A stretch of DNA of 64,000 nucleotides from positions 41,478,001-41,542,000 of the forward strand of contig OX485806.1 in assembly GCA_950295325.1 (NCBI GenBank), in the 5' to 3' direction. The notes beneath the pieces are model-generated. The model was not told the origin of the DNA and did not search any database. It worked only from the letters and a program-made list of their open reading frames with translations. Within the stretch, counting starts at the first letter, position 1, and every line of letters begins with the position of its first letter. Shown here in pieces: positions 7,631 through 60,484 of this stretch. The position numbers and the translations under genes are program-made. Origin of the DNA: Polytrichum commune (Eukaryota > Streptophyta > Polytrichopsida > Polytrichales > Polytrichaceae).

Positions 7631-8302
7631 TATGATGCACATTGACCCAATATGTACATGTATACATGCATGTAACTTAAGAATATTAAATAAAATAAGT
7701 GTAGCCCTTATCGGCTATATTTTTATAATTATTAATCATGCAATGAAGTGGGCTAGTGATGAAAACCATCATGTAATATAAAAGTTTACAAATGAAAGTA
7801 AAGTAGTATAGAGAAATGCACATTGTTGAAAATGGGCGATGTAGTGGAGACTCGGAGGGGTCACTCCCCCTTGTCGTGTAAATAGCGATCGTGTGTCAGT
7901 GCAGCTCGAGTACCAACCACCACTAACAAACAACACTAAAACATAGCAAAGTCACACATAAACAACACACCTCGACACAAAATGCTCTATTCCTGCCATT
8001 GTTGTGAGGAGAGATTCTTAGGTAGTGGTAGGAAAATGAGAGATGTGCATTTTATTTTATTTTCTTAAGCAACAGGGCCTCTTCATTTTGACCACCAACC
8101 GCAGGCGGGTGCCGGTTGGTCGCGGTTGCTTTCAATTTTTGTTTAAGTGTTGTTTTGGGGAAGAGGATCCAGTGTTGTTCTTGCATTGTTCCTTGTATTT
8201 TGTTTTGGTACCTTCCCCTGTGGCGGGCTGTAGTGCTGGAGTGTTCTAGCAATGCCCCATTTTGTATAGTCCTAGATTGTGATAGGGTACTGTGGAGGTA
8301 AG

Positions 8303-8391
8303 GTCGGATTAATAACCGACGGGACCTTTGTTTGTGCACCAAGTGGGCGGTGCTTGTTTTCACTTGTGGTGAGGCTGGGTTAATGACCAGC
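8303..8391 (+). promoter_or_regulatory. Twin TTAAT-loop hairpins in the leader of the DNMT-gypsy element
   Basis: Hairpin I (8303-8320) has stem GTCGG/CCGAC with loop ATTAATAA. Hairpin II (8374-8391) has stem GCTGG/CCAGC with loop GTTAATGA. They lie 118-206 bases upstream of the Gag start. The same pair, in the same order, occurs in the 3-kb solo LTRs (33354-33371 and 33402-33419, and inverted at 1584-1649), where the second stem is GTGGG/CCCGC. This suggests a selected RNA structure such as a packaging, dimerisation or translation element. The role is inference. Confidence 0.5.
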
Positions 8392-8508
8392 AGACCATAA
8401 GTTTTGGTGGTGGTTGCAGGTGCAGGTTGCCTTTGACCCTTTTTGTCTTTGTACCTCGATACTAATTCATTTGGGTTGTTGATTCGGTGACCATCCCATT
8501 GTGGGTTT

Positions 8509-10950
8509 ATGGTTACAACTCGTACTCAACACTATCGTTCTCCGTCCCCAGGAGCATCGGAAGGTCATCCCTCGGACCTCTCGGACGTTGAACCAGTGGT
8601 AGCACCCAACGAGGCTTTTCAACCTACTTCGGCGTGGGGGATTATCGCTCGGTCTCACGTCCTGTGGGTGGGAACCTTTGACGATATGGAGGAGGAGACT
8701 ATGGGAGGGATACGAGACCGGTTTTCCGGTCGAGCAGGGACCATTTCTCTGCAAGACTGGAAAACCCGGTTTCGTACGTGGATGCGAGAGAAACGCCAAC
8801 GCAATACCAATTTTAACGATTGGTATGTGTTCGAGCTTCTGCCTCAGCATTTGGAGCATGAAACTCTCCAAACTTATGAGCAGTGGACGGAGGCTCATTG
8901 GATGGACCTGCGCCAGGTGGAGCGATACTGGGAGACTCGGGTTGAGTTGGTATCCGCATTGAAGGAAGGCGCAACTTCCAGTTTCATGGCCGTCCCTGAG
9001 GTTAAGTCGGAGGTGCCGGAGGGAGTATTTGTGGTGGACGTGGAGGGAGCTTCTCCTGGTGAACCCAAGGATAAGGGTTCTGCTCCTGCTGTGGCGAGTA
9101 TGTCGAGCCCCATTCTTCCACTCTCCCATTATGCCCAGACTACACAGGCGGCTATTGCCTCTTTGGGGGCTCCGCCAGTTTTTGAGCCGTTGCGGGCATT
9201 TGAGCTGCATCTACATGAGGAGTACGGAGGTTTCCGTCGGGACCAGATGCAGCGGATACAAGATTTTAGACGGGAGAAGGACGATACACCTCGTACCATG
9301 TATACGAGGTTGGCGAGGTTTGCCAGAGAATCTGGAGGTGTGTTTGCGGAAAGTCAATTGGTGAAGGTGTTTTTGTCCAAGATTGACAAACGCCTCCTTG
9401 ATTTGGCACTGCCCAGGATCATCATGGATTATGGTGGTCGGGCGACAGTCGCAGAGGCATTCGCCGTGGTAGAGCAGTGTGATCGTGCATTATGTCAGCA
9501 CGATGCCACTGATTTGGTGTCCTTGCTAGTGGATTCTAACAAGTCCAGGAAGGCTCCAATCGCGACTGCGGGGTTGGCGGAGGCCGAGGTAGACAAGACC
9601 ATGTATTGTTGGTCTTGTGGGCAGGCTGGCCACGCTAAGAAGGACTATCCTTCAAAGGAAAAGCAAGCCCAGACTGTCACTACTCCGAAGCGGAAACCAT
9701 TTGTTCCCACAAAGGGCTCGGCGAAGGGGACGACGGGTAATCAGTTACCCAAGCAGTTGAAGTGTTCCCATTGTGGGCGGAACAATCACGCGGTAGAGAA
9801 CTGCTTTGCTCTCCATCCTGAGAAACGTCCTTCTTCCGACCGGGAAAAGACGTTGGAGGCGAAGATTGGAGCCATGGAGGAGAGGTTCAAAAGCTTGGCG
9901 TCATCCGGCCAAATTTTGGCCAGACCGTCTTCCTCCGGAGCTCAGGCTAGTTCTTCCACTCCGGATTACTATATGTTCGGAGCCTCGGGCGAGGTGGTGA
10001 GTTTCGCGGCCGTGACACGTGCTCAAGCTGTATCACAATCCATACCTTCGATCACAAATGAATATGTGGCAAGCTCGCGAGCTCGGGACAATGCACCCGC
10101 GGACCAAATTGGTCAGGCACGACTACCATTATCTTTTGGATTGGCCGATGCCGTCCAATCTGTCAGTGGTCGTCATCCGAACGATGAGGTTTCACATTCA
10201 GCGACCAATGTGGCGCACACGTTGGCATCCAAGGTGTTGCACACACCTTTGTTTACGGCCATGGAGTGGTCATCGCCAAAGTTCCAACCTGCTAAGGTTT
10301 TTCACTTAGTAGGTAGGATTTTGGAAGGGAAGGCATCCTTACCTTCTTTGACCGTGGTTCAAGCCACTACGGACATCCCTGCTTTTGAAGATCCTGAGGA
10401 TGTGGCCAAACGGCGAGCGAGACTTGCGGCAGAGACCATTGCGTCTTTTGACGCACACGCCTCAGATGACAAGGCACCGACCACGTTTTATGACTCACCA
10501 GTATCCTCGGGTGCAGCCTATCTGTCTGATGTCGCTGCTAGACCTGTCCGCGAGCGCCGCGGTATTCGACCCGGCGTTGTGCGTATGGTGAATGATACTG
10601 GAATTTTGGTGGTCAGTCGCACTGGGAGCAATGCTACTCGGGTTGCTCCCCGTTGTGTGATGATGGATTCAGGGGCACAGCCAGTTATGATCGGCAAGAG
10701 GCTTGCCCAAGAGTTGAGATTGACGGCCGAGGATTTGGCTCCCTGTCCATTCACCATTGTCACATCCATTGGTCACGTGGAGCGGGCCATGGGTTATACT
10801 CGAGAGCCATTACAGCTTAGCTTCCGTGTGAAGCCTGGAGATTCATCCGCACCTCTTCTTCTTAGGTGTGCGGTGACGGATGCGACCAACTATGACATTT
10901 TAGTTGGTCAGCAAGCACTTTACCCTCTTGGTTTTGGTTTGGACAACTAG
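8509..10950 (+). CDS. gag-pro: Gag-protease part of the gypsy polyprotein
   Basis: 813 codons from an ATG that follows the leader hairpins. The N-terminal half is an acidic, Trp-containing retrotransposon Gag. Residues 367-380 form a CCHC knuckle (CWSC...H) whose last Cys is Tyr (TAT for TGT), so it is probably defective. Residues 419-432 form an intact CCHC knuckle (CSHCGRNNHAVENC). The retroviral-type aspartic protease site is DSG at residues 720-722, with preceding hydrophobic residues as in the family. Gag packages element RNA and the protease matures the polyprotein. The TAG at 10948 is followed in the same frame by sequence leading straight into the methyltransferase. It is therefore probably a nonsense mutation of TGG, although read-through of a genuine stop cannot be excluded. 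Confidence 0.85.
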   Translation: MVTTRTQHYRSPSPGASEGHPSDLSDVEPVVAPNEAFQPTSAWGIIARSHVLWVGTFDDMEEETMGGIRDRFSGRAGTISLQDWKTRFRTWMREKRQRNTNFNDWYVFELLPQHLEHETLQTYEQWTEAHWMDLRQVERYWETRVELVSALKEGATSSFMAVPEVKSEVPEGVFVVDVEGASPGEPKDKGSAPAVASMSSPILPLSHYAQTTQAAIASLGAPPVFEPLRAFELHLHEEYGGFRRDQMQRIQDFRREKDDTPRTMYTRLARFARESGGVFAESQLVKVFLSKIDKRLLDLALPRIIMDYGGRATVAEAFAVVEQCDRALCQHDATDLVSLLVDSNKSRKAPIATAGLAEAEVDKTMYCWSCGQAGHAKKDYPSKEKQAQTVTTPKRKPFVPTKGSAKGTTGNQLPKQLKCSHCGRNNHAVENCFALHPEKRPSSDREKTLEAKIGAMEERFKSLASSGQILARPSSSGAQASSSTPDYYMFGASGEVVSFAAVTRAQAVSQSIPSITNEYVASSRARDNAPADQIGQARLPLSFGLADAVQSVSGRHPNDEVSHSATNVAHTLASKVLHTPLFTAMEWSSPKFQPAKVFHLVGRILEGKASLPSLTVVQATTDIPAFEDPEDVAKRRARLAAETIASFDAHASDDKAPTTFYDSPVSSGAAYLSDVAARPVRERRGIRPGVVRMVNDTGILVVSRTGSNATRVAPRCVMMDSGAQPVMIGKRLAQELRLTAEDLAPCPFTIVTSIGHVERAMGYTREPLQLSFRVKPGDSSAPLLLRCAVTDATNYDILVGQQALYPLGFGLDN

Positions 10951-12273
10951 ACTGAGGAGGCGTGGATCCAACCAGGTTGGTCGGCTGGGGATGGCCGCAG
11001 GGAACTTATTCCCGTGGCTTTCGCGGTGGCCGCGACCATAGCACCATTATCTATGGTTTTTGGATGTGGTGCTATGGTGGACACATTGCCTTATGGTTCC
11101 GCACTGTTGGAGGAGTCATTGGCATTCATGGAAAGTACAGACGATCAACGGGATATGGCACCTAAGGGTGCATTGGTGCGCCATCCCAAGGATCCCCTTC
11201 CTCCTTGGCGTGATTCCACCGAGCTATTTCGGAGGTGCGAGGATATTGCTCACTCTCTCACTCCTAGGACACCGGTCATACCGGGTGTCCTCTCGGCATT
11301 GGCACATCCCATTTTATGGCAGCCGCCAGAGGTGGGGATTACTTTGGTGGAACTGTTTGGGGGCATCGGCACAGGCTTAGCGGCCGTATTGGAGGTTGGC
11401 CTCACGGTTAGACGGTATGTCTATGTGGACAACTCTCAAGTGTCCACCCGTGTGGCTCGTCACCATCTTCACCAATTGATGGTATTGTATCCCCAGCAGT
11501 TACCTCCAACTACCATTCGTGGGTGTTTTTCACGTCTCCCTTGTGATGTCACACTCATCAGTGAGGCCGACTTACGACACTTAGGTCCGGTGGATATGGT
11601 GATTGCGGGATGGCCATGCCAGGGCCATTCACGTGCTGGAGCAGGCGGAGGACTAGAGGATCCCAGGTCTACTCTATTTTGGGACCTCATCCGCCTCATG
11701 CAGTGGTGGTATTCCCACCAACCTTTCCCTCCAGGGTATATTTTTGAGAATGTACCTTTGTTGGGAGACTCTCGGGACAAGGTGTTGGAAGGCGATTATT
11801 ATGTTTGTCAACACCTTGGAAATCCCATTTTTGTGGATGCCGCGAGCATTGGTTCTTATGCCCACCGGCCTCGGTGGATTTGGATCAACCTCGCACCGTC
11901 ATCTACTTTAGCTGTAGCATTTTCTGCAGTGCCTCCACCTTTTGATCAAAAGGTGGATGACATCTTGGATCCAAACCGGACTTCTATGCCAGTTGTTCGA
12001 GATGATTTACCCCCGTTGGCATTGGTCAACAAAATGAGGGCACCACGGAGAGCCTTTCCCACGTTTATGACGTTTCCACAATCATTCGCTTTCCACGATA
12101 GGGGGCCGGGTATGGTGTGGGATGTTCACACCAAAACCCACACCGAACCATTGGCTGACGAATGGGAGCGTGCCATGGGATTCCTCACTGGCACCACCGC
12201 AGCTCCCGGCCTTTCTGAGGGCCAACGACGTTTCGTGTTGGGCCAAGCTATGGATCTTCATACTATGGTGTGA
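10951..12273 (+). CDS. DNMT3-like C5-cytosine DNA methyltransferase domain of a retrotransposon
   Basis: 440 uninterrupted codons in the Gag frame; numbering here is from the first internal ATG at 11014 (419 residues). C5-methyltransferase motifs occur in the unpermuted order: motif I ELFGGIGTG (113-121, S-adenosylmethionine binding); motif II region YVYVDN (135-140); motif IV WPCQGHS with the catalytic Cys at 202; motif VI ENV (245-247); motif VIII AHRPRW (283-288); motif X EWERAMGF...LGQAMD (about 383-413). GLTVRRY after motif I and AHRxRW...NL resemble the DNMT3 class. DRM enzymes are ruled out by motif order, and I see no chromodomain or BAH domain of the CMT/MET1 type. The predicted activity is transfer of a methyl group to cytosine C5 in DNA. 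No key catalytic residue is visibly lost. It lies between protease and RT, and its role in the element's life cycle is unknown. Confidence 0.9.
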   Translation, partial: TEEAWIQPGWSAGDGRRELIPVAFAVAATIAPLSMVFGCGAMVDTLPYGSALLEESLAFMESTDDQRDMAPKGALVRHPKDPLPPWRDSTELFRRCEDIAHSLTPRTPVIPGVLSALAHPILWQPPEVGITLVELFGGIGTGLAAVLEVGLTVRRYVYVDNSQVSTRVARHHLHQLMVLYPQQLPPTTIRGCFSRLPCDVTLISEADLRHLGPVDMVIAGWPCQGHSRAGAGGGLEDPRSTLFWDLIRLMQWWYSHQPFPPGYIFENVPLLGDSRDKVLEGDYYVCQHLGNPIFVDAASIGSYAHRPRWIWINLAPSSTLAVAFSAVPPPFDQKVDDILDPNRTSMPVVRDDLPPLALVNKMRAPRRAFPTFMTFPQSFAFHDRGPGMVWDVHTKTHTEPLADEWERAMGFLTGTTAAPGLSEGQRRFVLGQAMDLHTMV

Positions 12274-12606
12274 ACTGTTGCTTTATGCCTTTCATTGCAA
12301 AGGCATCGTGGTGACCAGTGGTTGTCTCTGGGGGCAGAGGACTCTGGTCAGGGGGCACAGCGGTCCACACCCATGGAAGAGGGAATTCACGCCATGGTTG
12401 GAGAAGCCGAACGAATTTTTCAATTCGAGCAGCATGTAATGGAGGAGCTTCGAGCTCAACATTTTTACACTGCTTCGGTTTCTTCGCCTCCGGTGGTGGC
12501 TTCATCATCACATATAGGTGGTGATGAAGAAATGTCAGACTCTAGTACTAGCACCGAGACTGGGGGCATGGTTAATGCCCCCTCCTTTCATTAGCAATTA
12601 GAGTCT
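12274..12606 (+). pseudogene. Polyprotein linker between methyltransferase and RT
   Basis: The Gag/DNMT frame continues after the TGA at 12271 with an ATG at 12295 and runs to a TAG at 12592, then on into RT at 12607. About 100 residues rich in Ser/Glu/Thr are encoded, with no recognised domain. TGA could derive from CGA or TGG, and TAG between His and Gln from CAG. It may be a flexible spacer holding a cleavage site for the element protease. Confidence 0.6.
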
Positions 12607-13260
12607 GTGCCAACATCAGGTGGTTCTCCTTTGGTGGAGAGGGAGACTACAGAGTTTGATGATTGGCCACTTGAATTAGGCCCTCGTCTCACTGGTGCTG
12701 AGGCACGGAAGGTACGAGCATTTATTCGCTCGTACCGTAGATGTTTTGCTTTTAGCCTTCAAGATCTTGAAGGTTATAAAGGAAAACCCATCCACATTCA
12801 GTTGGAGGACGACCATCCCATTTTTCGGAGACCTTACAGGCTCAGTGTTTCCGAGCGGATTGGCGTTCAGGCTCGTTGCCGAGAGCTCTTGGCAGCAGGG
12901 CTAATCGAACTTTCCAACGGGGAGTATGCTTGTGCTACGGTTATGCCATCGAAGAAGGATATCTTTGGCAATTGGACGGAGAAGCGGATGTGTGGGGATT
13001 ACCGTCCAGTTAATCGGAAGACCAAGTCGGATCGATATCCCATGCCAATCCCGGAGGAGTTGTTCGATGCCCTCGGATTTGCTCGAGTCTTTAGCACGTT
13101 GGACTTGAGATCCGGCTATCACCAACTCCCATTACTTGTGGGAGACCGAGTGAAAACCGCATTCTGGGGAGTTGATCAAGATGGGAAGGATCAACTTTAC
13201 CATTGGAAGTTTCTTCCATTTGGCCTGAAAAATGCACCCGCTGAAAAATGCAGCGGTGAG
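12607..13260 (+). pseudogene. pol: Reverse transcriptase fingers/palm, catalytic YxDD deleted
   Basis: The N-terminal two thirds of a gypsy RT are clear: HIQLEDDHPIFRRPYR, CGDYRPVNRKT, the first catalytic Asp in FSTLDLRSGYHQ, and FLPFGLKNAPAE ending at about 13245. The next residues should lead to the YxDD box within about 25 positions. Instead the frame jumps after about 15 bases into sequence that aligns with the post-palm segment, continuing in another frame at 13263 as LRLHHGKCKFF. Roughly 45 codons, including both Asp of the second catalytic pair, are missing, so the enzyme cannot polymerise. Confidence 0.85.
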
Positions 13261-13262
13261 GA

Positions 13263-14825
13263 TTGCGCTTGCACCACGGCAAGTGCAAGTTTTTCCATGA
13301 CCGGTTGGCATATTTGGGGCATATGATTGTTCCAGGAGGTCTTGGGGTACAACAAGCTAAGGTGGACGCATTGCAGAAGATTCCGGCACCGGTAGATGTG
13401 CCGAGACTTCGTGCTTTCTTGGGCTTGGCGAATTACTATCGGCAATTCGTCAAGAACTTTAGCTTGATTGCCAAGCCGCTCACCATTCTCACGAGCAAGG
13501 ACCAACCTTGGACTTGGGGTCGTGAGCAGCAACAGGCATTTGAGACATTGAAGCAGAAACTGGGTACGGCTCCAGTGCTTCGACGTCCAGATGTCTCCAA
13601 ATCTTTCCAGTTGCATACAGACTGGAGCTCATTGGGTTTGGGAGCAGTTCTTACTCAGAAAGATGATGTTGGCCGGGAGTATGTTGTTGCTTATGTGTCG
13701 CAAAGCAACAACACGGCGGAGGCCAATTATTCGTCCTATGAGGGAGAAGCATTGGCGGCGGTGTGGGCTATTGCCCATTTCCGGCCATATCTTTATGGTC
13801 AACACTTTACTTTGGTGACTGACCATCAGCCGTTACGGTGGTTCATGGAGTCGGATAAGCTTACTGGCAAGCTTGCCAGGTGGGCTTTGTTGCTCCAGGA
13901 GTATGACTTTGAGGTGGTACACCGTGTTGGGATTACCAACATGGATGCAGATGGACTCTCACGCAATCCAAGTCCTTCAGATGAGGACTTGACCGGGGCC
14001 AGGTGGCATGGAGATTGTGATCGAGAGGCGGTTCCAGGTTGGCACGCCACTGCCTACCTCACTTTATTTTCTGGTGCATCTGTTGAGATTCCGATACAGG
14101 GCTTGGATGATGAGACTAAGCGGCCTCAAGCTATTGCAGATATATGGGAGGATCTTCCTGTATTGCATAAGCTTCAACAGGGTACATTTCCTTTGTCTAT
14201 TTCGGCAATGGAAAGGGATAGGATTGGACATCGAATAACAAGGTTCCGTTGGGAGAACGGTTTGTTATTTCGATTGTGGCCGGATGGGACAAGGCGTATT
14301 GTTCCTAGGCCGGATCAGAGGGCCTCCTTGGTGCGACAAATGCACGAGGAACTTGGCCATTTTGGTATACGCAGGACACATTCGATGTTGCGTGGCCAAT
14401 ATTGGTGGACTGGCATGTATCAGCAGGTGGCTGCATATGTCGGGAGGTGTGAAGTTTGTGACCGGGTCAGGTCTAGCTTTAACACCTTATCACCTCAGTT
14501 ACAGCCCTTACCTATCATGGGATTAGGCTACCGTTGGTCGCTGGACTTTGCAGGGCCGTTGGTGGTTACACCACGTGGAGCAAAGTACGTTTTGGTGATG
14601 GTGGAGCATTTTAGCAAATGGATTGAGCTTGTTGCTCTACCCCAGAACTCTGCAGAGTTGGCCGCGGCCGCCTTTTTGGATCGTGTGTTAGCACGTTTTG
14701 GAGCACCAGCTGAGGTGTTGACGGACCAAGGGAGGGAGTTCCTTGGTGTTTTTGAGGAGTTGTACACTAAGGCTCTCATAGATCACCGCACCACCTCTCG
14801 GGATCATCCGGAGGCAGATGGCTAG
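13263..14825 (+). pseudogene. pol: RT connection, RNase H and integrase
   Basis: 521 codons in frame 3 after the RT deletion. The RT thumb/connection is marked by FLGLANYYRQFVKNFS. RNase H follows with its acidic residues in LHTDWSSLGLGAVL, YEGEALAAVWA, LVTDHQPL and DADGLSR. Integrase begins with the HHCC zinc finger (HEELGHFGIRRTH ... CEVCDRV) and continues with the catalytic core: first Asp in WSLDFAGPL, second in LTDQGREF. The frame ends at a TAG (14823) inside the expected DGxAER box. Just beyond it the catalytic Glu reads Lys (AAA at 14829), so integrase is doubly inactivated. There is no in-frame ATG near the start; this was part of the polyprotein before the deletion. Confidence 0.9.
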
Positions 14826-15143
14826 GCTAAACGGGTTGTTCAGACAACCAAGCGTGGCTTGAGGAAGTATGGATTGCTTCGGAGAAGCCACCGGGATTGG
14901 GACCTTATGTTGCCATGGATTGCTATGGGTTATCGATTTAGTATGCAGGCCTCTTTGGCATCCTACAGCCCGTATCAATTATTGTATGGACGTGAGCCTA
15001 TACTCCCGAGTTCTATTCGGGAAAAACTAGCTCCTGTTGTGAACTTGGATGACCCAGACCTTTGGGCAGAGTGTTTACAGGAGCGGGCTCAATTTTTCCA
15101 GAGGGCCATGCCTATGGCCATGGAGAATTTGTCCATTGCTCAG
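14826..15143 (+). pseudogene. pol: Integrase C-terminal part, truncated at 15143
   Basis: The frame continues from the TAG with KRVVQTTKRGLRKYG, WIAMGYRFSMQAS, SPYQLLYGREPILPS and ends at ENLSIAQ. These are the normal integrase core end and post-core segments of gypsy elements. Similarity stops exactly before TGGATATC at 15144. The downstream continuation of the open frame to 15446 belongs to unrelated sequence. Confidence 0.8.
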
Positions 15144-15480
15144 TGGATATCTATTGTCTCATTGGCCATTGATAGAATTTGGATATCTATCCATTTAGAT
15201 ATCCAAATGCACACAACTAGTCAAGCTATCTTTCACTCCACCAAGGGAGAATCCAAGAGTGTAAATAGGGGAAGAAGAACTCAAGATTTATTGCAAAATC
15301 ATGCAATCTACACCTCACACAAGCTCTCTCCACACACTAACTCACAAAACTTGACTTGGCAAGAATGCCAAGCCAAGGAGGAGGCTCCTCACTTAGGAGC
15401 CTTCCTCTCCACATCTAGATTCATCCATCCAAATCTAGATGGATGAAACCCAACGGATAAGGTGCGGCCGTCGACGCCGC
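15144..15480. other. Foreign segment joined to the truncated integrase, hairpin at its start
   Basis: The segment opens with TGGATATCTAT. TGGATATCTA recurs at about 15180 and is followed by its inverse TAGATATCCA, giving a terminal hairpin. A second inverted pair, CATCCATC...GATGGATG, lies near 15422-15445. It may be the edge of another insertion, but I found neither TSD nor opposite end. Confidence 0.35.
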
Positions 15481-17100
15481 ATACCGTGACACCCTTGTGT
15501 TATGTAACCACGTGCGTACAAAGGATATTTTTATGGGGGCTATTTACCTCCTCATTTGGATTTTTTGGAATTCTTTAAGTAGAAAAAAATCTACTTCACC
15601 AAAGAGATATTGGTGATACAAAAAGGTAATTGTATCACCCTATATGTAATTATAAAGGAAAACCCAAACTATTTCAAGTGATGCTAAATTACTTATAAAA
15701 TTTTGATTTACTCGTTCCATATGAAGGCAAATTCAAAACTCCAATATGGCATGGTGTACATTCACGTTGTTATATATTGGTGAAAGAAAAGTCTACACAT
15801 CATAACTAAAGCATGCCATGCATCTAAGTTAAATGTCAGTTTAGGAATTTGTAATCTAAAAGTGAAATCTACAATCAATACAGTTGAAATGAAACCAATG
15901 ACATGAACAAGAACATAATCAATGAATGTGGCATAAAAACAACACACGCCAAGAAAACCGAGCCAAAAGTTCAATTGCAAAGCTGGATTTTTAGAAAACA
16001 CAAAGAAAAAATGCATTCCACTAAATTTTTAGCAACCCCATACTAGAATGCGAACTTCATGAGATTTAGATGCCAACTTCATAAGACTCAAAATTGAAGA
16101 ACAAGATGGAGCTCCTGTAGCCAAACATAACCACGTACAAGGGTCAAAATTGCAAAGGCCAACAACAAGTCTAGGTGCCAAGTGAGACAAAGGCACAGAG
16201 GCCAACAATAAACTTGCCAAATAAAGGTTTCAAATCATATGCAAGGGAATTACCTTGAACGAGAAGGAATTTGGGTTGTTGCACTGACGCACTAGAGATT
16301 TGAAGCTTGAGCTAGAAGAAGGTAACTACAACGAGCAATGATCTAGACACTCACAATGGTACAAATGAAGTTAAATCAAGTAACTCATTCTTCCCACACC
16401 TTCCCAAGTTCTCAATTTCGTGTACTAATAAATTTTGGGATTCAACATCGACAAAAGTAAAGTGTATACATTATGCGTAGGATTATATGACATAGTTACA
16501 GTCAAGATAATTGTATCCACATCTATCCACTTGCAATCTGCATGGTCATATTTAAATTTGAATTACCTAGGGACCTTTCTAAACCATTGCATGAACACCA
16601 TGAAGGAAGGAATGGAATTCTTCCGTGAATTCACTTGTCGGTTTTGAAGATCAACGGGTTGATGAGACGAACCCCACTTTGTACCCACTTTTCTTTTAAT
16701 TTTTTGCACTCTACCCACCCACCATGTTCCTTCATCCACACCATTTAGCACACAAGTGGCAGTGCCATTCTTTGAAGGCTGCCCCCTTTTCCGCTTTGCT
16801 ACAACTTTCACCGTGGATGAAATTGTTGTATTGCTCTACTCCAAAAAATAAACACCTGCATCCGAACCAAGACTCAAAAACATGGTAGAGGATGAAGAAG
16901 TAGCACAGAGGTATGCCTCACTATTATTAAAATAAATTGATTTTTTTTACTCTAATTAGTCTATCCTTGAACACAAAAATATTACCATTTAATTGAAAGA
17001 CTAAGGTTGACTTGAAGATTTGGTTCCCTTCATACTCTACATAAATAAGTATTTGGCTCAAAGTGGTCTTCCACTCCATTTAGAATCTCTGAGAACGCAT
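15481..17100. other. AT-rich sequence without supported genes
   Basis: Only short frames are present, with no recognisable domain, LTR, hairpin series or RNA gene. Small frames near 16435-16811 overlap antisense to each other. Confidence 0.4.
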
Positions 17101-21507: not shown

Positions 21508-21739
21508 GGGTCCCTTCCTTCTCCTCCCCACTTTTTGCAAGAAGAAAAAAATTGTTGAGAGAACGAGTGGTGAGGCTGTTTTTTTTTTCGAGCCGCTAGC
21601 AGTTGGATTGCTGGGATTCCATAATTTCCAGTCACCGGCAGTTGGCTTGCCGGGACTCCGTAGCAGTTGAGCGGAAGAGAGGGAATCTGGAGGGGAGAGA
21701 ATTTCCGTGGTTGAGACCGAAGTTGGGAGAAGTAGGAAA

Positions 21740-23377
21740 ATGCCGGAAGCACGGGAAGAGGATCGGAGGGAACCCATCCCGGTTCCGCTTAAAGCCCTCA
21801 TCCCTACAATTCCGAGGGAGGACGGGGAGCTGCAGGAGCTAGTGGAGGATCTCCGGGTTATGGGTTGCGTGGGGTTGCTCGCCAAACCCTGGAACCTCCG
21901 AGCGGAAAATACCCTCTGGGAGTTCAAGTTCGAGAGAGGTAATCAGTGGCTAGGGACCAAGAGGAGGGATCCGGATAGTTGGACTCCGGATGTTTGGAAT
22001 AGGGTCTACGAGTTTCCGAGGGGAATTGCAGAGGGATGGGCCGGCCATCGCGATGGCCTGTTCGCCGGAAAGTTTAGAAGGGACGCGGACCCGAAGGACG
22101 GCTTCCACCCCGGGAACTGCCGGAACCTTAGAGAGCGGAGAGTATTAGAGTTCTTCCTGCCCATCCTTAACCCGGACAAGCCTAAGCGGATTAGCCTTAC
22201 CATGGCTAACACCCTGTTTGGTGGTATGTCCGGAGTCCGGCCCGTGAATTGGGGGCTGATAATTCAAGAAATAGTAGGGCGGGCCCTCCCCCATATAGGC
22301 CGGAAACCCTCCTTCCTCTCCCCCTTCATTCTGCACCTCTATCAGCACTTTGACTGCATCACGGTCAAGGAGGAGGACCTGCTGACGATCGCGGCAGATG
22401 AGGTCACCTACAAGCTCCATCCGGAAGCCGGAGACCTCAAGACGGAAACTTCCAGCGACCCCATCATTCCGGAAGCACCTCCCTCTTCACCCGGAAGCCC
22501 GCCGCCGACCCTCCAGAGGCCAATCTCTCCTCCCCCTCATCATCATCCGGAACCCGGACCCAGCCGGGAGACCACTTGGCAGAATGTGGATCTTTTCGCT
22601 TGGGACTTTCCGGAAAATCCCTTCAAGCGGGTCCAGGAGGGGTTGGAGGATGTGCAGAACCAGTACTACCGGCTGGAACACATCGTCCGAGGAGCAAACC
22701 AGGCCCTGGACGACTGCGGACCCGGAAATATTCTCCGGGAGTTGGCAAAGAGGGCGGACAGGAAGGAGCTCGAGCAAGCCAAGACGGAGAATGCTCACCT
22801 CACCGCGCAGGTAGCGGCCATGACTCAAGAGTTGAGTAAAAAGAGCGAGGAGATCCGGAAGTACCACGCGGAGCAGGTAGTGGTCTTCAGTCGGATCCGG
22901 GAGCTGGTGGGGCATCCGGCAGAGATCGTCAACAAGGCGCATCTCTACGACCGGATGATGGCGTCCGGAGAACCCGCTTTTGCTAGGCAGACCCTCCCCA
23001 TCCTCGTGAAATACTCACGGACGATGAAGGATCTCCTGGCGGAAATCCAGAAGGTGGTTCCGCCAAGCGGAACACCCCGGCGGGTACTCTATCCAGGTCC
23101 GCCTGGGTCACCAACTGGAACCCTCTACGAGGTGGTTGGTGAAGTCGCCCTGGTCCAGAATCCGCCAATGTCTGCAGGACCCAGCCAGCAGGGAGGCGGC
23201 TCTCGGCCTGCTAGTTCCGAAAGAGCTTCGGAAAGGATCCGCTTTCCCCAGGTGAGGCGGAAGAGCACCGGGTCTGTTAAATCTGGACGAGGCCAGTCCC
23301 CTGTCCCGCGGACCTCGGATCGGTCCCGGACTCCGGACAGAGCTAGGACGCCGATAAGGCACCAGACTTCGGATTAA
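21740..23377 (+). CDS. Gag-like coiled-coil protein of element A, C-terminally truncated
   Basis: 545 residues from the ATG of MPEAREED, chosen because copies B and C share this start. The GTG-initiated extension from 21707 is not conserved as a start. An N-terminal globular region (about 1-230) contains KPWNLRAENTLWEF, KDGFHPGNCRNLRERRVLEFF, TMANTLFGG..GVRPVNWG and ILHLYQHFDC. It resembles plant-transposon/gag-like proteins of uncertain function. A Pro-rich linker (about 245-290) is followed by a predicted coiled coil (about 320-395, KRADRKELEQAKTENAHL) and a basic Ser/Arg-rich tail. No zinc knuckle, protease or pol domain is present. A role in RNA or nucleic-acid binding is inference. TAA at 23375 cuts off a tail conserved in the other copies. 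Confidence 0.75.
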   Translation: MPEAREEDRREPIPVPLKALIPTIPREDGELQELVEDLRVMGCVGLLAKPWNLRAENTLWEFKFERGNQWLGTKRRDPDSWTPDVWNRVYEFPRGIAEGWAGHRDGLFAGKFRRDADPKDGFHPGNCRNLRERRVLEFFLPILNPDKPKRISLTMANTLFGGMSGVRPVNWGLIIQEIVGRALPHIGRKPSFLSPFILHLYQHFDCITVKEEDLLTIAADEVTYKLHPEAGDLKTETSSDPIIPEAPPSSPGSPPPTLQRPISPPPHHHPEPGPSRETTWQNVDLFAWDFPENPFKRVQEGLEDVQNQYYRLEHIVRGANQALDDCGPGNILRELAKRADRKELEQAKTENAHLTAQVAAMTQELSKKSEEIRKYHAEQVVVFSRIRELVGHPAEIVNKAHLYDRMMASGEPAFARQTLPILVKYSRTMKDLLAEIQKVVPPSGTPRRVLYPGPPGSPTGTLYEVVGEVALVQNPPMSAGPSQQGGGSRPASSERASERIRFPQVRRKSTGSVKSGRGQSPVPRTSDRSRTPDRARTPIRHQTSD

Positions 23378-31327: not shown

Positions 31328-34166
31328 TGTGAACCCTTTGAGTGGTCCACCACTCTGCGGGATCACTTTTAGTTAGAATGTTAGCATTAAAAGTTAGAAT
31401 TGATAGGGAATTTAGGGAAAATTAGTTCATTTAGCATTTAGCCTAGAAGAAGGAAGGTCAAAATGAAACTAAGTAGTGCTAGAAGATAGCAAAGTAGAAA
31501 AAATATGCTAGCTAGTAAAAACAACTAGCTAAGCAAATATTAGTAGATGCTAGCTATTAAGCAAATGTTAGTAAATGCTAGCTAAGCAAGTGTTAGTTTA
31601 TTAGTTAGTGTGAGGCACACAAGACTATTAGAGGTGGTTTAGGTAAGAAGATAAAATCGGCTTGAAGACTTTTGAAGACAAAAAAGAAAGAGAGCAAGGG
31701 GGATACTTGCCCACTTGCCCCCTTGCCAACTCGATGGCGGAAAAATTAGAAAGATTTCTAAAGGTTTTTTTGTCGGAGCCACCTCGGCGAGAGGGTGGCA
31801 ACCTCAACCGGGAAAACCCCCGAGCCAAAATTTCGGGAAAGGGTTTGAAAAATGGATCCGGTGGAGGAGGGGTCCAACCCTTTTGTGAGAGGGTTTAAAA
31901 ACCCCTCCTTCCACCTTGTAGCTCTCGCTCTTTCTCTAGTTTTTGGGCGAAGCCCTGCTTCAATGTAGTTAGGAAAAAATCCTTTAGCATGTATTCTCAA
32001 TGGTCTAAAAGAAAGGCTTGAGAACCTCCTCTACTCTCTCTCTCCTAGTTAGGTTGTGTGTTTATTAACACACCAACAAAATTATTCCTTCTTTTGTAGA
32101 GGTAGGTTGGATGGTAGAGTTTTGAGTAGAGGCATTATAGACCTCATCTGCCAATGCCCTGAAGGCTTAGTTCAAAAGCTAGAACAAGATACTTATCATT
32201 TTTCTCTTAGAGAGATTTCATATAGCTATCCATAGCCGTTTCCCATTTGTGATTTGGTTGAGATGACAATTAGTTATGGATTTTCAAAGATGGAGTAGAA
32301 AAACTGGGTGGTCTTGTGGGTAGCGGCTGCTGGATCAGACCTGCGAGCCCAATAGGAATTTTAATTCCAAGAAATTATATTTTTCCCAAGTAGAACTTTT
32401 GTGTAGCTTTCCAAAATGGCTTAGAACATTTGATTTGAGCATGATTTGAATGAGATATGAATTGTGCAAGATGGGACACATAGTTTGAGAACTTTTGGTT
32501 GACTGCTGCATTACAGAGGACCTGCTGGGTTCACTTCGGCTTACCTTTCTAATCACATATTTTTATCAAATACATCTTTTTAATATCTCTCCAGGGTCAT
32601 ATAGAACGTTTGATTTGACTAAGATTTGAATTAGATATGAATTGTTGAAGGCAAGATACATAGTTTAAGCCTTCTTGATTGACTGTTGTGTTACAAGGAG
32701 TCCGCTGAATTTCTATTAGCTTAACCTGTTGATGTCATAATTTTTCTAGTTAGAGCTTGTTCATAGCTTTCCAATGGTATAAGGAAAGCCTAGATCCAAG
32801 TAGTAAGGAATGTGCTATGAATTGTTGAAGTTAGAAGGTAGATAGGTGGGTTGGAAGGGTCGGTTGAATCGACCTCACACTTCCAACCCTCATAACTTTT
32901 GCATTTCTTATCCGATTAGAGTGATTTTTAGATCATTGGAAAGATAATTTGGTGCACTAAGTATAAATATTATGCTTAGGATTAAATTACAGGGCAGAAT
33001 AACACTTTATATTTTAATTGTTAACTAAGGTACGCTTACTACCAAACTAGTTACAAAGAAGGAGGCAAGGTCGACGCTCGGAAAGTGGAGCAAGGAAGGA
33101 GGTAGCGGCTCGGCCTACATCAAGCCCAAATCAACCGAGGAGAATTGAGGTAAATTTACTAACGCTAACCTTCCATTTAGGGTTGGAGGGAGCGCGGCTA
33201 AGGTACGCATCTCTAAACCCACTCACCTATCTCGTAAGGTCAAGTGGCTTGACCACTTGACCGCCAAGGGAGTACCCAATTCCATTGTTTTCGGGGCCCT
33301 TGGTATGTTTTGTGGTAGTAGCTTCATTTATTAGCAAGTTTCGTGTGTGGTAAGTCGGGTTAATCACCGACACGACCACTCTGAATGTTGTTGGTGGAAA
33401 GGTGGGGTTAATGACCCGCGAATCCACTATTATGTTGTTGGCCCCATAGATTGGGAGTAATGGCCCCAATTTATGAAGATTGCGCAACAGGTTGAACCTA
33501 CAGGTCGCCCGTCACCCTGGTCCCATTGAGTTGCATTTCGTGGTCTATCCAGTGTAAACACATTTAACAATCAAAACATACCAAATAAATCGTAAACCCT
33601 TGTTGGCAAGAGACCCGAGGTAAGGGGTAATGCCTAATATGTTAATGTAGTAAGTTAGGACGTGCAAACAAAAGTAAGTAATTAAGAAGGAATTTGTGTG
33701 AAGGGTGGGACTTAGGCCAAGTTTCCCCGCTTAGAAAACTAAATAGAACTAAATAAAGAAATAGGAAGAATTGAATGGTCCATCAAATTGTCGTTATTCC
33801 GTTCGTTGAGTTGGGGTGGTATCAGTCACACCCGGTTGGGTGTATCAGAACCATCCCAATTCACAAATTAGGATTGCCTTGGTTTCAAGGCTGGTGCGTC
33901 TGCGCGTAGAATAGGTTGTAGGTTAAGGTTAGAACTAGATATGAAATTGGTTAGTGGAGTTTAAAGCCACACTAGTAAAAAACTAAGGCCTAACCTCCGG
34001 AGGTACTACGACGCATATTTAATCTCCCTTAAAAATCTAACTACTCACGTTATACACCTATCATCCGGGTTCGGCTTGGGCGCCTGCAAATGCAGGCCAC
34101 CTTCACCGAAGGGCTTGTGTGATACTTTTAGGCTCCCTCGAAAGGGGGTGGCCCAAAAGTACCACA
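31328..34166 (+). mobile_element. 3-kb solo LTR, copy 2, in the satellite array
   Basis: The inverted homologue of 716-3781: it begins TGTGAACC, ends GTACCACA and is flanked by the perfect TSD CAAAC (31323-31327 and 34167-34171), which is part of the satellite monomer. It is 2,839 bp long; the shorter length is largely explained by absence of the ~120-bp duplication and the ~135-bp segment present in copy 1. It carries the twin hairpins at 33354-33371 and 33402-33419. No coding potential shared with copy 1 was found. Confidence 0.92.
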
Positions 34167-34582
34167 CAAACCAACCTTTCAACTTAGAATTTGGCCTAAT
34201 ACACCAACAGAGATTAAATACAACATGCAACCCCAAGACCTCGAACCTATGTACACAATCAAAATCTTGTGTGAACTTGACCCTATGTATACAATCAAAA
34301 TTTGTTGTGGAACCCCGAACCCCTTGACCCTCTTGGAATCGAGAGGATCCCCACATTATCAACCCTTGACTTCAAATTCTCAAACCAACCTTACAACTTA
34401 GAATGTGGCCTAATACACCAACAAACATTAAACACAACAAGCAACCCCTTAAACGCAACCTATATATACAATCAAATCAGGTGTGAACTCGCCCCTATGT
34501 ACATAGTCAAAATTTGGTGTGGAACCCCGAATCCGATGACCCTCTTGGAACCGAGAGGGTCCCCACATTATCAACCCTTGAC

Positions 34583-36340
34583 TTCAAATTATCAAACCAA
34601 CCTTAAAACTTAGAATGTGGCCTAATACACCAACAAAGATTAAACACAACAAACAACCCCTTGACCCCGAACCTATATATACAATCAAATCTGGTGTGAA
34701 CTCGCCCCTATGTACACAATCAAAATCAGGTGTGGAACCCCGAACCCCTTGACCCTCTTGGAACCGAGAGGATCCCCACATTATCAACCCTTAACTTCAA
34801 ATTATCAAACCAACCTTACAATCTTAGAATCTGGCCTAATACACCAACAAAGATTAAACACAACAAGCAACCCCTTAAACGCAACCTATGTACACTATCA
34901 ACCCCTTAAACTCAAACCTATGTACAAAGGGTTCAGTTGGTGTGAACTCAACCCTATGTACACAATCAAAATTTGGTGTGGAACCCCGAACCCCATGACC
35001 CTCTCGGAACCGAGAGGGTCCCCACATTATCAACCCTTGACTTCAAATTATCAAACCAACCTTAAAACTTAAAATCTGGCCTAATACACTGACAAAGATT
35101 AAACACAACAAGCAACCCCTTGACCCCGAACCTATATATACAATCAAATCTAGTGGGAACTCGCCCCTATGTACACAATCAAAATCTGGTCTCAAACCCC
35201 AAACCCCTTGACCTTCTCGGAACCGAGAGGATCACTAGATTATCGACTTCAAATTATCAAACCAACCTTACAACTTAGAATGTGGCCTAATACACCAACA
35301 AAGATTAAACACAACAAGCAACCCCTTAAACGCAACCTATGTATACAATCAAAATTTGGTGTGAACTCAACCCTATGTACACAATCAAAATTTGGTGTGG
35401 AACCCCGAACCCCATGACCCTCTCGGAATCGAAAGGGTCCCCACATTATCAACCCTTGACTTCAAATTATCAAACCAACCTTAAAACTTAGAATGTGGCC
35501 TAATACACCAACAAAGATTAAACACAACAAACAACCCCTTGACCCCGAACCTATATATACAATCAAATCTGGTGTGAACTCGCCCCTATGTACACAATCA
35601 AAATCAGGTGTGGAACCCCGAACCCCTTGACCCTCTTGGAACCGAGAGGATCCCCACATTATCAACCCTTAACTTCAAATTATCAAACCAACCTTACAAT
35701 CTTAGAATCTGGCCTAATACACCAACAAAGATTAAACACAACAAGCAACCCCTTAAACGCAACCTATGTACACTATCAACCCCTTAAACTCAAACCTATG
35801 TACAAAGGGTTCAGTTGGTGTGAACTCAACCCTATGTACACAATCAAAATTTGGTGTGGAACCCCGAACCCCATGACCCTCTCGGAACCGAGAGGGTCCC
35901 CACATTATCAACCCTTGACTTCAAATTATCAAACCAACCTTAAAACTTAAAATCTGGCCTAATACACTGACAAAGATTAAACACAACAAGCAACCCCTTG
36001 ACCCCGAACCTATATATACAATCAAATCTAGTGGGAACTCGCCCCTATGTACACAATCAAAATCTGGTCTCAAACCCCAAACCCCTTGACCTTCTCGAAA
36101 CCGAGAGGATCACTAGATTATCGACTTCAAATTATCAAACCAACCTTACAACTTAGAATGTGGCCTAATACACCAACAAAGATTAAACACAACAAGCAAC
36201 CCCTTAAACGCAACCTATGTATACAATCAAAATTTGGTGTGAACTCAACCCTATGTACACAATCAAAATTTGGTGTGGAACCCCGAACCCCATGACCCTC
36301 TCGGAATCGAAAGGGTCCCCACATTATCAACCCTTGACTT
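34583..36340 (+). repeat. 878-bp higher-order unit, two near-identical tandem copies
   Basis: 34583-35460 and 35461-36338 correspond base for base at an offset of exactly 878. I noticed only isolated differences, for example TTCTCGGAACC near 35213 versus TTCTCGAAACC near 36091. Each unit spans four diverged monomers, so the duplication is recent and arose by unequal exchange of a multi-monomer block. Confidence 0.9.
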
Positions 36341-37348
36341 CAAATTATCAAACCAACCTTTCAACTTAGAATCTGGCCTAATACACCAACAGAGATTAAA
36401 CACAACATGCAACCCCAAGACCCCGAACCTATGTACAGAATCAAAATCTTGTGTGAACTCGACCCAATGTATACAATCAAAATCTAGTGTGAATTTGACT
36501 CAATGTACACAATAAAGATTTGGTGTGGAACCCCGAATGCCTTGATCCTCTCGGAACCGAGAGGGTCCCCACATTATCAACACTTGACTTCAAATTATGA
36601 AACCAACCTTACAATCTTAGAATCTGGCCTCATACACCAACAAACATTAAACACAACAAGCAACCCCTTAAACCCAACCTATGTACACAATCAAAATCTG
36701 GCGTGGAACCCCGAACTCCTTGACCCTCTCGGAACCGATAGGGTCCCCACATTATCAACCCTTGACTTCAAATTATGAAACCAACCTTACAATCTTTGAA
36801 TGTCGCCTAATGCACCAATAAAGATTAAACAAAACAAACAACCCCTTAAACCCAACCTATGTACACAATCAAAATCGGGTGTGAACTCAACCCAATGTAA
36901 ACAATCCAAATCTGGTGTGAAACCCCAAACCCCTTGACCCTCTCGACCCCGAGAGGGTCTGTGAGGCCAAACCACCCACCCTTATGCGTCGTAGTCCGGG
37001 TGAGGGCATGGGGATCACATTCATGTTCACATAACTCCCTCTTCCCAACGCCAGTAAAATCCATTACATTTCCCATCAACTCTTGCACACCAGTTTATTC
37101 CATAATACGAGTACAAGCATTGAAAAATGCTCTTCTCTATTTATTCCCTTCTTCCTACACTAATTTACAACCAACCCTCAAATCCCTACAAAAAACTCAT
37201 CCCCTTAGGCCACCCTCTAATTTATATGAGGCCGAACCGCCCTAATTCACTAATGAGTTGAATTCCTAGTTTAATCTTCCTCCCCCCCTTTCCTAATTAG
37301 CTAGCCCACAATATGAGGTGACATTAGTAACCCTGGCCCTTCCCATAA

Positions 37349-37415
37349 CCGGCCTGGGCTCATAACCGGTCCCATAACCGGTCCCTAACCGGTCACATAT
37401 CCGGTCCCATAACCG
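37349..37415 (+). repeat. CCCATAACCGGT microrepeat
   Basis: Five to six imperfect copies of CATAACCGGTCC occur in about 65 bases, rich in CCGG sites. Confidence 0.75.
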
Positions 37416-37429
37416 GCAGCCCCCGAGCT

Positions 37430-38405
37430 CTCTTCACATCAGTAGCTCTTCATGCCGAACCCAAGCCTCAAACCAACAGCTCTTCATGCCGAGCCCAAAG
37501 CCTCAAATCAGTAGCTCCTAATGCCGAGCTCAAAATTTCAACCGCAACTCAATTCATGCCGAACCCAAGCCTCAAACCAGCAGCTCTTCATGCCGAGCTC
37601 AAAACTCAAATCAATAGTTTGAATGCCGAACCCAAAGCCTCAAATCAGTAGCTCCTAATGCCGAGCTCAAAACTCAAACCAGCAGCTCTTCATGCCGAGC
37701 CTAAGACTCAAATCAGTAGCTCCTAATGCCGAGTTCAAAACTCAAATCAGTAGCTCTGAATGCTGAACCCAAGCCTCAAACCGCAGCTCATCATGCCAAG
37801 CTCAAAACTCAAATCAGTAGCTCTGAAAGCCGAACCCAAGCCTCAAACCAGCAGTTCTTCATGCCAAGCCCAAAGCCTCAAATCAGTAGCTCCTAATGCC
37901 GAGTTCAAAACTCAAATCAGTAGCTCTGAATGCTGAACCCAAGCCTCAAACCGCAGCTCATCATGCCGAGCTCAAAACTCAAATCAGTAGCTCTGAAAGC
38001 CGAACCCAAGCCTCAAACCAGCAGTCCTTCATGCCAAGCCCAAAGCCTCAAATCAGTAGCTCCTAATGCCGAGTTCAAAACTCAAATCAGTAGCTCTGAA
38101 TGCTGAACCCAAGCCTCAAACCGCAGCTCATCATGCCGAGCTCAAAACTCAAATCAATAGCTCTGAATGCCGAACCCAAGCCTCAAACCAGCAGCTCTTC
38201 ATGCCAAGCCCAAAGCCTCAAATCAGTAGCTCCTAATGCCGAGTTCAAAAACTCAAATAAGTAGCTCTAAATGCCGAATCCAAGCCTCAAACCAGCAGCT
38301 CTTCATGTTGAGCCCAAAGCCTCAAATCAGTAGCTCCTAATGCCGAGTTCAAAACTCAAATCAGTAGCTCTGAATGCCGAACCCAAGCCTCAAACTGCAG
38401 CTCAT
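37430..38405 (+). repeat. Tandem array of CAGTAGCTC..ATGCCGA units, 170-bp higher-order period
   Basis: The basic unit is about 35 bases (TCAAATCAGTAGCTCCTAA then TGCCGAG). The variant TAGCTCTGAATGCTGAACCC recurs near 37751, 37921 and 38091, exactly 170 apart, marking a higher-order repeat of at least three copies. No open frame spans the array. Confidence 0.85.
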
Positions 38406-51320: not shown

Positions 51321-52295
51321 TGTCGCAACCCTTGCTAGCCCCCCTTGACAATCTTGCCAATTTTCAATTCTAGCAAAGGTTACGAGCACTAACCATTCGC
51401 ATTCCGCCATGCTAATGATTAGCTCCTCCTACCCCGGACCTTATAGTTCATAGGAGGGAACCAACCCTCCTACTTTGCTTTCGGGACTCACCCCTTAATC
51501 GGTAACCCATTCCTAGATGTGGACTTCCATCCATGGAAGTCCAATCCCATGTTGATCATCGCGTTGCCGGAGCAACACTACAACAACCCGTACCATACTA
51601 GGCAACTATGGCCTCACATTGGGCCAATGCCCATGGAGGCCGTGCCGTTCGGCATCGGGTGGGTGAGGCCACACCACCTCACCCATATAAGCCTCTAGGA
51701 CTTTACACGGGGCCCCTTCCCCACCGTCAACCAACCTCTTGTCTCTCCACCAAGAGTTGGGGCCAAGTGGACATTCTCCCTTAGCCGCTGGGCCTAGAAC
51801 CCTCTAGCAGCTTCAGACCATCACAACTTCCTTTTATGATGTTTGATGCTAGCAACCAACCACTCCAACTTCATCTACGTTTCACATAGATGCCGATGGA
51901 CTCCTCACTTGCCCCATTCAGGCAAGTATTGAGGAAGTTATGCCTCTTTTGAATCTTGGCAGTCCCGGGAGTCACTCCCAGGGCACTGATGTACCAGGAC
52001 GCTGTCCCGGGACAGCACCCCACTCAAATGGCCATAACTCCTAGCTCACACCTCCGATTGAGGTGTTCTTGAGCATTCTAGAATCACCACGCCATGAGCT
52101 ACGCATAGCTGATGGCCTTACCCTCATGCCTCCTAGTTTTCGTGGGTGGGAGGCGTTCCCAACGCCCGGGGCCCTCACCCACACTAGGATCACTTGGGCC
52201 CTCTCCCCAACGGCGCCACAAGTCCCGGGTGTCACTCTGGGGCTACCCTTGTGCCCATGGTGTCTTAGGCACTCCTCATGGAGAGGTGCGCGACA
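51321..52295 (-). repeat. 3' LTR of the outer gypsy element
   Basis: 975 bp, TGTCGCAACCC to GGTGCGCGACA as read on the plus strand. The adjoining 52296-52309 reads GGTGCGGGTGAG on the minus strand, a purine-rich tract in the position expected for plus-strand priming. Confidence 0.92.
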
Positions 52296-52309
52296 CTCAC
52301 CCGCACCAA

Positions 52310-60469: not shown

Positions 60470-60484
60470 TTTGGTGGGGGTGAG
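60470..60484 (+). promoter_or_regulatory. Polypurine tract of the inner element
   Basis: GGTGGGGGTGAG directly precedes the 3' LTR. Position and composition fit the plus-strand primer site. Confidence 0.75.

Follow-up and report, generated by a model that had tools for sequence, protein, structure and literature searches.

The closest described system is KnitGypsy-Dnmt3 of the alga Klebsormidium nitens, an LTR Gypsy element of a streptophyte host that encodes an intronless Dnmt3-type cytosine methyltransferase (MTase), evolves under purifying selection and has its repeats arranged as A-coding-B-A-B (de Mendoza et al., 2018; PMC5890265). The same study describes SymbioDIRS-Dnmt3 of Symbiodinium, in which a Dnmt3-type MTase is combined with A-B-A-B repeats, a tyrosine recombinase and a DIRS-type pol; this DIRS-borne enzyme produced de novo CG methylation in yeast; for the KnitGypsy MTase, yeast showed no activity, a result that the authors themselves call inconclusive (PMC5890265). 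In DIRS elements with Dam, in SymbioDIRS with Dnmt3 and in KnitGypsy, split or DIRS-type repeats occur together with a methyltransferase (PMC5890265). The finding of retroelement MTases is repeated for streptophytes and dinoflagellates in PMC12344493, and a 2019 paper states that land plants such as tracheophytes lack transposons with DNA methylases (PMC6338049). The preliminary description of the present locus pointed to the work of de Mendoza et al. (2018), and rightly so: the principle was already known from KnitGypsy-Dnmt3 (PMC5890265).

So how does a moss locus compare with these systems? The window, that is, the whole stretch of 64,000 nucleotides of Polytrichum commune DNA that was analysed, contains a copy of a Ty3/gypsy element, and its segment 11014-12273 is the DNMT3-type cytosine methyltransferase of that element, located between the protease (PR) and the reverse transcriptase (RT). 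The copy consists of the following features:

7868-7871, no strand: left target-site duplication CCCT; the same 4 bases occur at 15492-15495
7872-7977, minus strand: B repeat, outer end TGTCG (CGACA on the minus strand), 98.1% identical to the B copies of L040
8006-15143, plus strand: element core with part of the 5' UTR, gag, PR, MTase, RT, RNase H (RH) and part of the integrase (INT), 91-98% identical to L039/L040 by blastn
8509-10950, plus strand: ORF1 segment for gag and the aspartic protease, interrupted by a premature stop at 10948
11014-12273, plus strand: linker and DNMT3-type MTase domain, with a premature stop at 12271
12592-12594, plus strand: conserved in-frame UAG at the ORF1/ORF2 boundary, from alignment across loci
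12595-12600, plus strand: putative CARYYA readthrough motif, here CAATTA, from alignment (motif as in PMC3542737)
12607-12618, plus strand: 5' arm of a predicted 12-bp RNA stem, 11 of the 12 pairs of which form in the window copy (L009)
12693-12706, plus strand: 3' arm of the predicted stem, with a 2-nt bulge inside
12607-13326, plus strand: RT part of ORF2, in the same frame as ORF1 (PF00078, 3.2e-8)
13263-14825, plus strand: RH and integrase part of ORF2, in a different frame (PF17917, PF17919, PF17921, PF00665)
15204-15491, minus strand: partial A repeat, outer end TGACA (TGTCA on the minus strand), 97.6% identical to the A repeats of L039/L040
15492-15495, no strand: right target-site duplication CCCT

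Gag, protease, MTase and RT all lie in a single frame that begins at 8509 and is interrupted by stops at 10948, 12271, 12592 and 13324; the first two of these are premature by comparison with the copy L039. The protease motif MDSGAQ lies at 10663; in L039, a zinc knuckle (PF00098, 0.0038) and Asp_protease_2 (0.0026) are both matched under their Pfam cut-offs. The RT is broken near 13245, with about 124 bp gone relative to L039, and the C-terminus of the integrase and the PHD finger are missing. Furthermore, the core is oriented opposite to its own end repeats. The combination of minus-strand end repeats, a plus-strand core and CCCT on both sides implies a single insertion with an inverted and trimmed inside; the inversion and trimming took place either before or after integration, and autointegration or strand switching could have been the route to the internal inversion and losses (7868-15495). 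With its premature stops, lost ends and rearranged insertion, the window copy is dead.

Several other features of the window were recorded. By eye, ORFs of one repeated protein family (MANTLFG..VRPVNWG..) are found at 21707-23377 (plus), 43991-45113 (plus) and 47029-48132 (minus); 52112-52579 (plus) and 60201-60668 (minus) form a repeated pair in inverted arrangement, as do 53539-54066 (minus) and 58715-59203 (plus), which look like integrase pieces of another gypsy element. A strong GC skew of about -0.37 to -0.38 extends over several kb (34001-38000).

The window copy has numerous siblings. In the genome (407.8 Mb; 64 contigs, of which seven are large, a number reminiscent of the n=7 of Polytrichaceae mosses), a protein search found at least 100 family copies on seven contigs (the best 101 rows, including the window, of 654 candidates), and 11 of the 101 listed rows match without a stop in a frame exceeding 1300 codons; the family is high-copy, and other copies look intact. 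The A5 and A3 repeats diverge by 0 to 2.1% in the seven copies measured and are identical in L039/L040, which indicates recent transposition. Copies have the order A-interior-B-A-B, where A measures about 334 bp (440 in L041) and B about 108 bp. Instead of two full LTRs at the ends, the split arrangement A-interior-B-A-B was found in 9 of 11 copies and A-interior-B in the other 2, in a sample that, the window apart, was picked for long frames and over-represents young copies. Target duplications of 4 bp flank 12 of the 12 copies examined (nine, plus L039, L041 and the window copy), and the ends are TGTCAC...CGACA. The two A-interior-B copies (L057/L058 and L069/L070) have a single B and no second A, yet their 4-bp target duplications are perfect; perhaps the second A was lost by recombination between Bs. 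As judged by eye, the inner B/A junction CGACA-GC-TGTCAC holds the palindrome GACAGCTGTC and a G-tract lies ahead of the first B; inspection by eye only, in L039 and L041, revealed no shared TGG-type primer-binding site after A. Ordinary LTR logic gives BA-interior-BA, and the integrated form of this family would be that arrangement permuted by B, as if the integrase had opened a two-LTR circle at the B/A junction. The split A-B-A-B arrangement is described for KnitGypsy-Dnmt3 as well (de Mendoza et al., 2018; PMC5890265). The three hallmarks of that element, a Dnmt3-type MTase, a gypsy pol and A-B-A-B repeats, are all found in the Polytrichum family, which also shares with it the lack of introns in the MTase, purifying selection and a streptophyte host. 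The union of split or DIRS-type repeats with a methyltransferase, in the three published cases and in the Polytrichum family, may be more than chance.

The MTase domain occupies residues about 105-419 of the ORF at 11014-12273 (11326-12270). Its core has the motif order I-IV-VI-VIII-X, and DNMT3 is its best solved relative, in a structural ranking where VIA-align re-ranks Foldseek hits only. The central claim of the preliminary description, a DNMT3-like MTase of a gypsy element between protease and RT, is borne out by the family, structure and copy evidence. The catalytic fold and motif order are those of animal DNMT3A/DNMT3B, with about 30% identity to a partial DNMT3A over 192 aligned positions, but the element MTase has PCQ rather than PCN, and neither PWWP nor ADD was detected in the scanned ORFs (Pfam). 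ADD is PHD-like, and the PHD finger of the element resides on another part of the polyprotein than the MTase, in contrast to the ADD of DNMT3A/DNMT3B. Plant DRM belongs to the same wider MTase family; its motifs are rearranged, whereas the motif order of the element MTase is ordinary. A DRM-like host gene at C2:4.70 Mb (L085, C2:4698500-4708400) is split into exons, one of which matches DNA_methylase (3.1e-13, Pfam) and four other pieces of which match no family; UBA-like pieces and the rearranged DRM motif order were read by eye. The element MTase shares 22% identity over 128 residues with the motif I-V exon of this gene, which was rejected as the source of the MTase because the motif order, by eye, differs. 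A canonical host DNMT3 was not seen among the best 150 of 299 candidates. DRM is said to be restricted to streptophytes (PMC12344493). This gene and the bryophyte-labelled relatives of the element speak for a bryophyte host, although in the tree described below the named bryophyte rows stand outside the group of the window copy.

The order of pol domains is PR-RT-RH-INT with a DDE integrase (Pfam; D, D and E in the L050 integrase by eye). The presence of the rve integrase and the absence of the tyrosine recombinase PF00589 from the scanned ORFs show that the element is not DIRS-type; it combines a DDE integrase with a gypsy RT, unlike the tyrosine recombinase and DIRS-type pol of SymbioDIRS. 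A PHD finger closes ORF2 behind the integrase (L040, 1e-11; L042, 1.6e-11; L050, 4.3e-10) and is also present in the environmental proteins P0157 and P0158. The element thus appears, from its predicted domains, to combine a chromatin reader (PHD) with a writer of DNA methylation (MTase). Neither the main text of a survey of plant LTR elements (PMC6317226) nor that of de Mendoza et al. (2018) contains the term 'PHD'; the main text of the latter also lacks 'readthrough' and uses 'stop codon' only for Symbiodinium (PMC5890265).

A clear difference from KnitGypsy-Dnmt3, the MTase of which is part of the Pol polyprotein ORF (PMC5890265), is that in the Polytrichum family the MTase closes the gag-protease ORF ahead of an apparently leaky UAG. 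ORF1 encodes gag-PR-MTase and ORF2 encodes RT-RH-INT-PHD, in the same frame, with one UAG codon between them. When placed by alignment, with the motif unused, TAG is present in 39 of the 39 spanned loci out of 40 (L017 being unspanned; 37 distinct copies, as L005=L014 and L031=L039) and is followed by CAATTA in 34, CAATCA in 4 and CAGTTA in 1, all of which are CARYYA; the change from CAATTA to CAATCA alters the amino acid and retains the motif. In a wider set, again by alignment only, TAG was found in 49 of the 49 spanned loci out of 51 (L008 and L017 unspanned), with CARYYA behind it in 48, the sole exception being L080 with CAGTTG; this set amounts to 45 distinct copies of the genome (L075, L076 and L083 repeat L023, L038 and L009) plus L050, an element from elsewhere with 66-78% DNA identity to L041. 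A stem is predicted from 12 nt behind the stop, with z scores of -3.0 in L039, -2.5 in L041 and -4.3 in L050, and of the 588 cells for its 12 pairs in the 49 loci, 574 (97.6%) are paired. In a covariation test on 31 sequences chosen with a motif filter, two stem pairs show double changes (C-G to U-A and A-U to G-C); the covariation score or the number of double-changed cells was reached by 0 of 500 shuffles, the number of double-changed pairs by 126 and the number of pair types by 362. The RNAalifold covariation term for the stem is small (-1.07), and the double changes represent two or three events only in a region that also codes for protein. UAG-CARYYA is the readthrough context of tobamoviruses (PMC3542737), and in murine leukaemia virus, UAG readthrough occurs between gag and pol, in one frame (PMC5009743). 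The likeness to both is limited in that the element has its MTase on the gag side and in that its readthrough is predicted from sequence. Programmed readthrough of the UAG is, on this prediction, very likely. Given that the MTase ends the gag-protease ORF and the UAG precedes the RT, the MTase should be made at the abundant Gag level rather than at the RT level. Synthesis at the Gag level would not be universal, because in the related protein P0124 the MTase and RT share one ORF with no stop between them.

These observations can be accommodated by a scenario under which the window holds a dead copy of a recently active, split-repeat gypsy family that makes its MTase at the Gag level and marks its cDNA in advance. 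We put the probability of this reading as a whole at roughly 50%; its anatomical part is practically certain, and the proposal that the element's own cDNA is the main target of the MTase is tentative, at a little under even odds. Ribosomes would stop at the UAG most of the time, yielding the MTase as the C-terminal part of a Gag-protease-MTase product, with occasional readthrough adding RT-integrase-PHD. Inside the particle, the MTase would be released by the protease and would there meet newly made double-stranded DNA, methylating it de novo before integration, and the PHD finger might steer the integrase to a particular chromatin state. The gain for the element would be that a new copy already bears a mark of self or of repression on arrival, with damage sensing and cost to the host kept limited.

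Alternatively, the MTase could methylate the inserted copies of the element itself, keeping transposition and host damage low, as proposed in the Discussion of de Mendoza et al. (2018) (PMC5890265). Synthesis at the Gag level would provide dose-dependent control, which is compatible with such self-restraint, and so is the high copy number. Heavy heritable self-methylation is expected to leave CpG depletion, and no such trace is seen in the element copies: CpG observed/expected is 0.73 in L039 (0.61 in its 3' part), 0.66 in L041, 0.72 in the window copy, 0.82 in L050 and 0.755 on average for 28 loci, compared to 0.61 and 0.65 in the rest of the window. These values are not lowered and accordingly do not point to heavy heritable self-methylation. 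In theory, moreover, an element is under weak selection to restrain itself, and we consider this explanation unlikely. The roles proposed in the preliminary description, namely pre-methylation of the cDNA, mimicry or recruitment of host silencing and shielding from other elements, keep the standing of hypotheses, to which the CpG test lent no support.

Another possibility is action in trans, whereby the MTase would methylate host or rival DNA and silence competitors or foreign DNA, with an indirect gain for the element. A leaky stop is expected to give a separate, abundant product, as this explanation requires, and an antiviral role of transposon methylases has been a matter of speculation (PMC6338049). 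Nothing in the data points to a target in trans, however, and fusion to Gag would probably hold the enzyme in particles, which makes this role improbable.

About equally improbable is the idea that the stop is a mere ORF boundary, with ORF2 expressed via reinitiation, a spliced RNA or internal entry. The early Met of ORF2 in L041, at residue 14, would suit such a route, but the first Met comes as late as residue 117 in L039 and L050, as well as in the window copy; the shared frame, the UAG in 49 of 49 loci, CARYYA in 48 of 49 and the stem behind it all argue for readthrough.

Could the MTase simply contribute DNA or RNA binding to the particle, with catalysis irrelevant? Here the pattern of selection is pertinent. 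For the 28 loci of equal length among 30 (two were dropped for length; 21 have no stop in the MTase stretch), the median pairwise dN/dS is 0.22 in the MTase domain and 0.33 in the linker ahead of it, compared to 0.13 (sum ratio 0.12) in the RT of 12 open copies and 0.79 in the tail between the MTase and the UAG (14 copies). For the 8 copies in which MTase and RT are both open, dN/dS is 0.21 and 0.08, respectively; between the lineages L039, L041 and L050, MTase dN is 0.20-0.27, with dS of about 2.5, 3.0 or saturated, and pol dN is 0.08-0.09. Ungapped estimates for the upstream stretch (17 open copies; medians 0.68 and 0.29, one sum undefined) are blurred by indels and were set aside. Purifying selection keeps the MTase, less tightly than the RT and far more tightly than the adjoining tail. 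The weaker constraint compared to the RT would be compatible with a structural use, as would L022, which has lost the catalytic Cys (PYQ) and yet has no stop in the MTase, and L020 and L035, which lack the Glu of motif VI. Against this stands the retention of motif IV in 27, motif VI in 25 and motif VIII in 28 of 28 copies, with all four motifs examined intact together in 23, and the presence of GWPCQ at motif IV in 62 of 77 element rows (4 have GWECQ, 1 has GFPCQ, and the other 10 are unmatched by the regular expression). A purely structural use is therefore very unlikely, and the sequence makes it probable that the MTase of intact copies is an active DNA methyltransferase. In P0124, P0157, P0158, P0168 and P0090, GWECQ replaces GWPCQ, placing Glu instead of Pro beside the catalytic Cys.

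Finally, there is next to no chance that a host DNMT gene or retrocopy landed by accident in or beside a retroelement at this place only, an objection raised in the preliminary description and already refuted by the at least 100 copies on seven contigs, many of them matching residues 1-419 of the ORF unbroken, by the proteins shared with other species, by the sole host methyltransferase gene seen being exon-split and, by eye, DRM-like, and by the MTase being carried by 21 of the best 22 places found with an RT query. That query lacked the MTase, and the best 22 of its 2626 candidates, mostly L041-like, were scored: at 15 of these, an MTase match lies some 1.23 kb upstream in the same orientation, and 6 others align with L041 over the whole MTase. 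Siblings devoid of the MTase, which the preliminary description had named as counter-evidence, were hence not found among those 22 places, save for L087, which keeps just the last part before the UAG and looks truncated.

Beyond Polytrichum, three protein searches returned 115, 89 and 16 hits (the last two including query rows), most of them unnamed and none named Klebsormidium. The labelled relatives are attributed to Marchantia polymorpha, Calypogeia fissa, Sphagnum troendelagicum, Closterium sp. NIES-53 and Mesvir1, a label that we read as Mesostigma viride; these are represented by gag-protease-MTase or MTase models only, which do not include pol. The protease match is under the cut-off in P0110 (5.3e-5) and weak in P0168 (0.034; both Pfam), and in the remaining relatives it was assigned by eye. 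P0110, from Closterium, has no Pfam MTase match, the motif IV stretch being absent from the gene model, and its kinship is that of a protein search (1.1e-28). MTase identity to the window copy is 66% for L050, 64% for L041, 50% for Calypogeia, 49% for Marchantia, 46% for P0124 and 37% for Mesostigma. Pol identity to the moss-type elements is 56-58% for P0124, 46-47% for P0157 (RT-RH), 42-44% for P0163, in which no MTase was seen, and 27% for P0167. The domain order is PR-MTase-RT in L039, L041 and L050, MTase-RT in P0124, RH-MTase-INT in P0157, RH-MTase in P0097 and MTase-INT in P0081; P0157, with its MTase between RNase H and integrase and a PHD finger plus a further tail, represents a second architecture of the same family. 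L050 (CADCWO010000201.1) is filed under a cyanobacterial MAG yet encodes the element, and its ends overlap by 127 bp, as in a circularised repeat contig; P0008, filed under an Obscuribacterales MAG, belongs to the retroelement family. Both are likely contamination of bacterial bins, and L050 was taken as eukaryotic. Seven loci on viral contigs, with short matches at 26-58% identity, and four of the five genome_contigs loci, all Streptomyces, were taken for ordinary phage-type MTases and dropped; the fifth is L050. A1 was too divergent to serve as a locus query.

A quick tree was built from 152 matched proteins, of which 77 passed a length filter; 2 DNMT3 rows were added and 9 of the 79 dropped by hand, leaving 70. 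Its outside rows are DNMT3A/B fragments only, with no host DNMT3, and given the long branches, the deeper joins are unsure. The window copy groups with L039, P0002, P0003 and P0005 (98) inside a group of 20 (99) that carries no eukaryote names, and the 7 named bryophyte rows fall in its sister group of 13 (100). These data fit one old lineage with a moved domain, and independent captures are also possible; the shared A-B-A-B repeats and the related pol proteins favour the old element lineage.

Members of this family in bryophytes, Closterium or Mesostigma, a putatively leaky UAG behind the MTase, an integrase ending in a PHD finger and a DDE integrase with permuted ends are all unreported in the literature that was searched. 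Few retroelements encode the enzyme that normally serves to silence them, and their existence is unexplained; the published cases that we found come from an alga and from dinoflagellates, and the setting that is new here is a land plant. If the source labels hold, the bryophyte proteins limit the statement on land plants in PMC6338049. The leaky stop yields a concrete prediction, an MTase made at the Gag level, and the PHD finger hints at a joint evolution of targeting and marking. It is conceivable, although we regard it as rather doubtful, that an ancient retroelement lineage near the base of the streptophytes joined a DNMT3-type writer to a PHD reader, with repeats hinting at circle-like DNA in need of methylation. 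If so, a reader-writer pair like that of host DNMT3 would have been rebuilt on a mobile polyprotein, and the A-B-A-B repeats would be its tie to a circle-like DNA intermediate integrated by the DDE enzyme at permuted ends. Marchantia is a genetic model, and with a family that is abundant, recently active and has bryophyte-labelled relatives, the benefit that an element draws from a DNMT of its own can be put to the test in a land plant.
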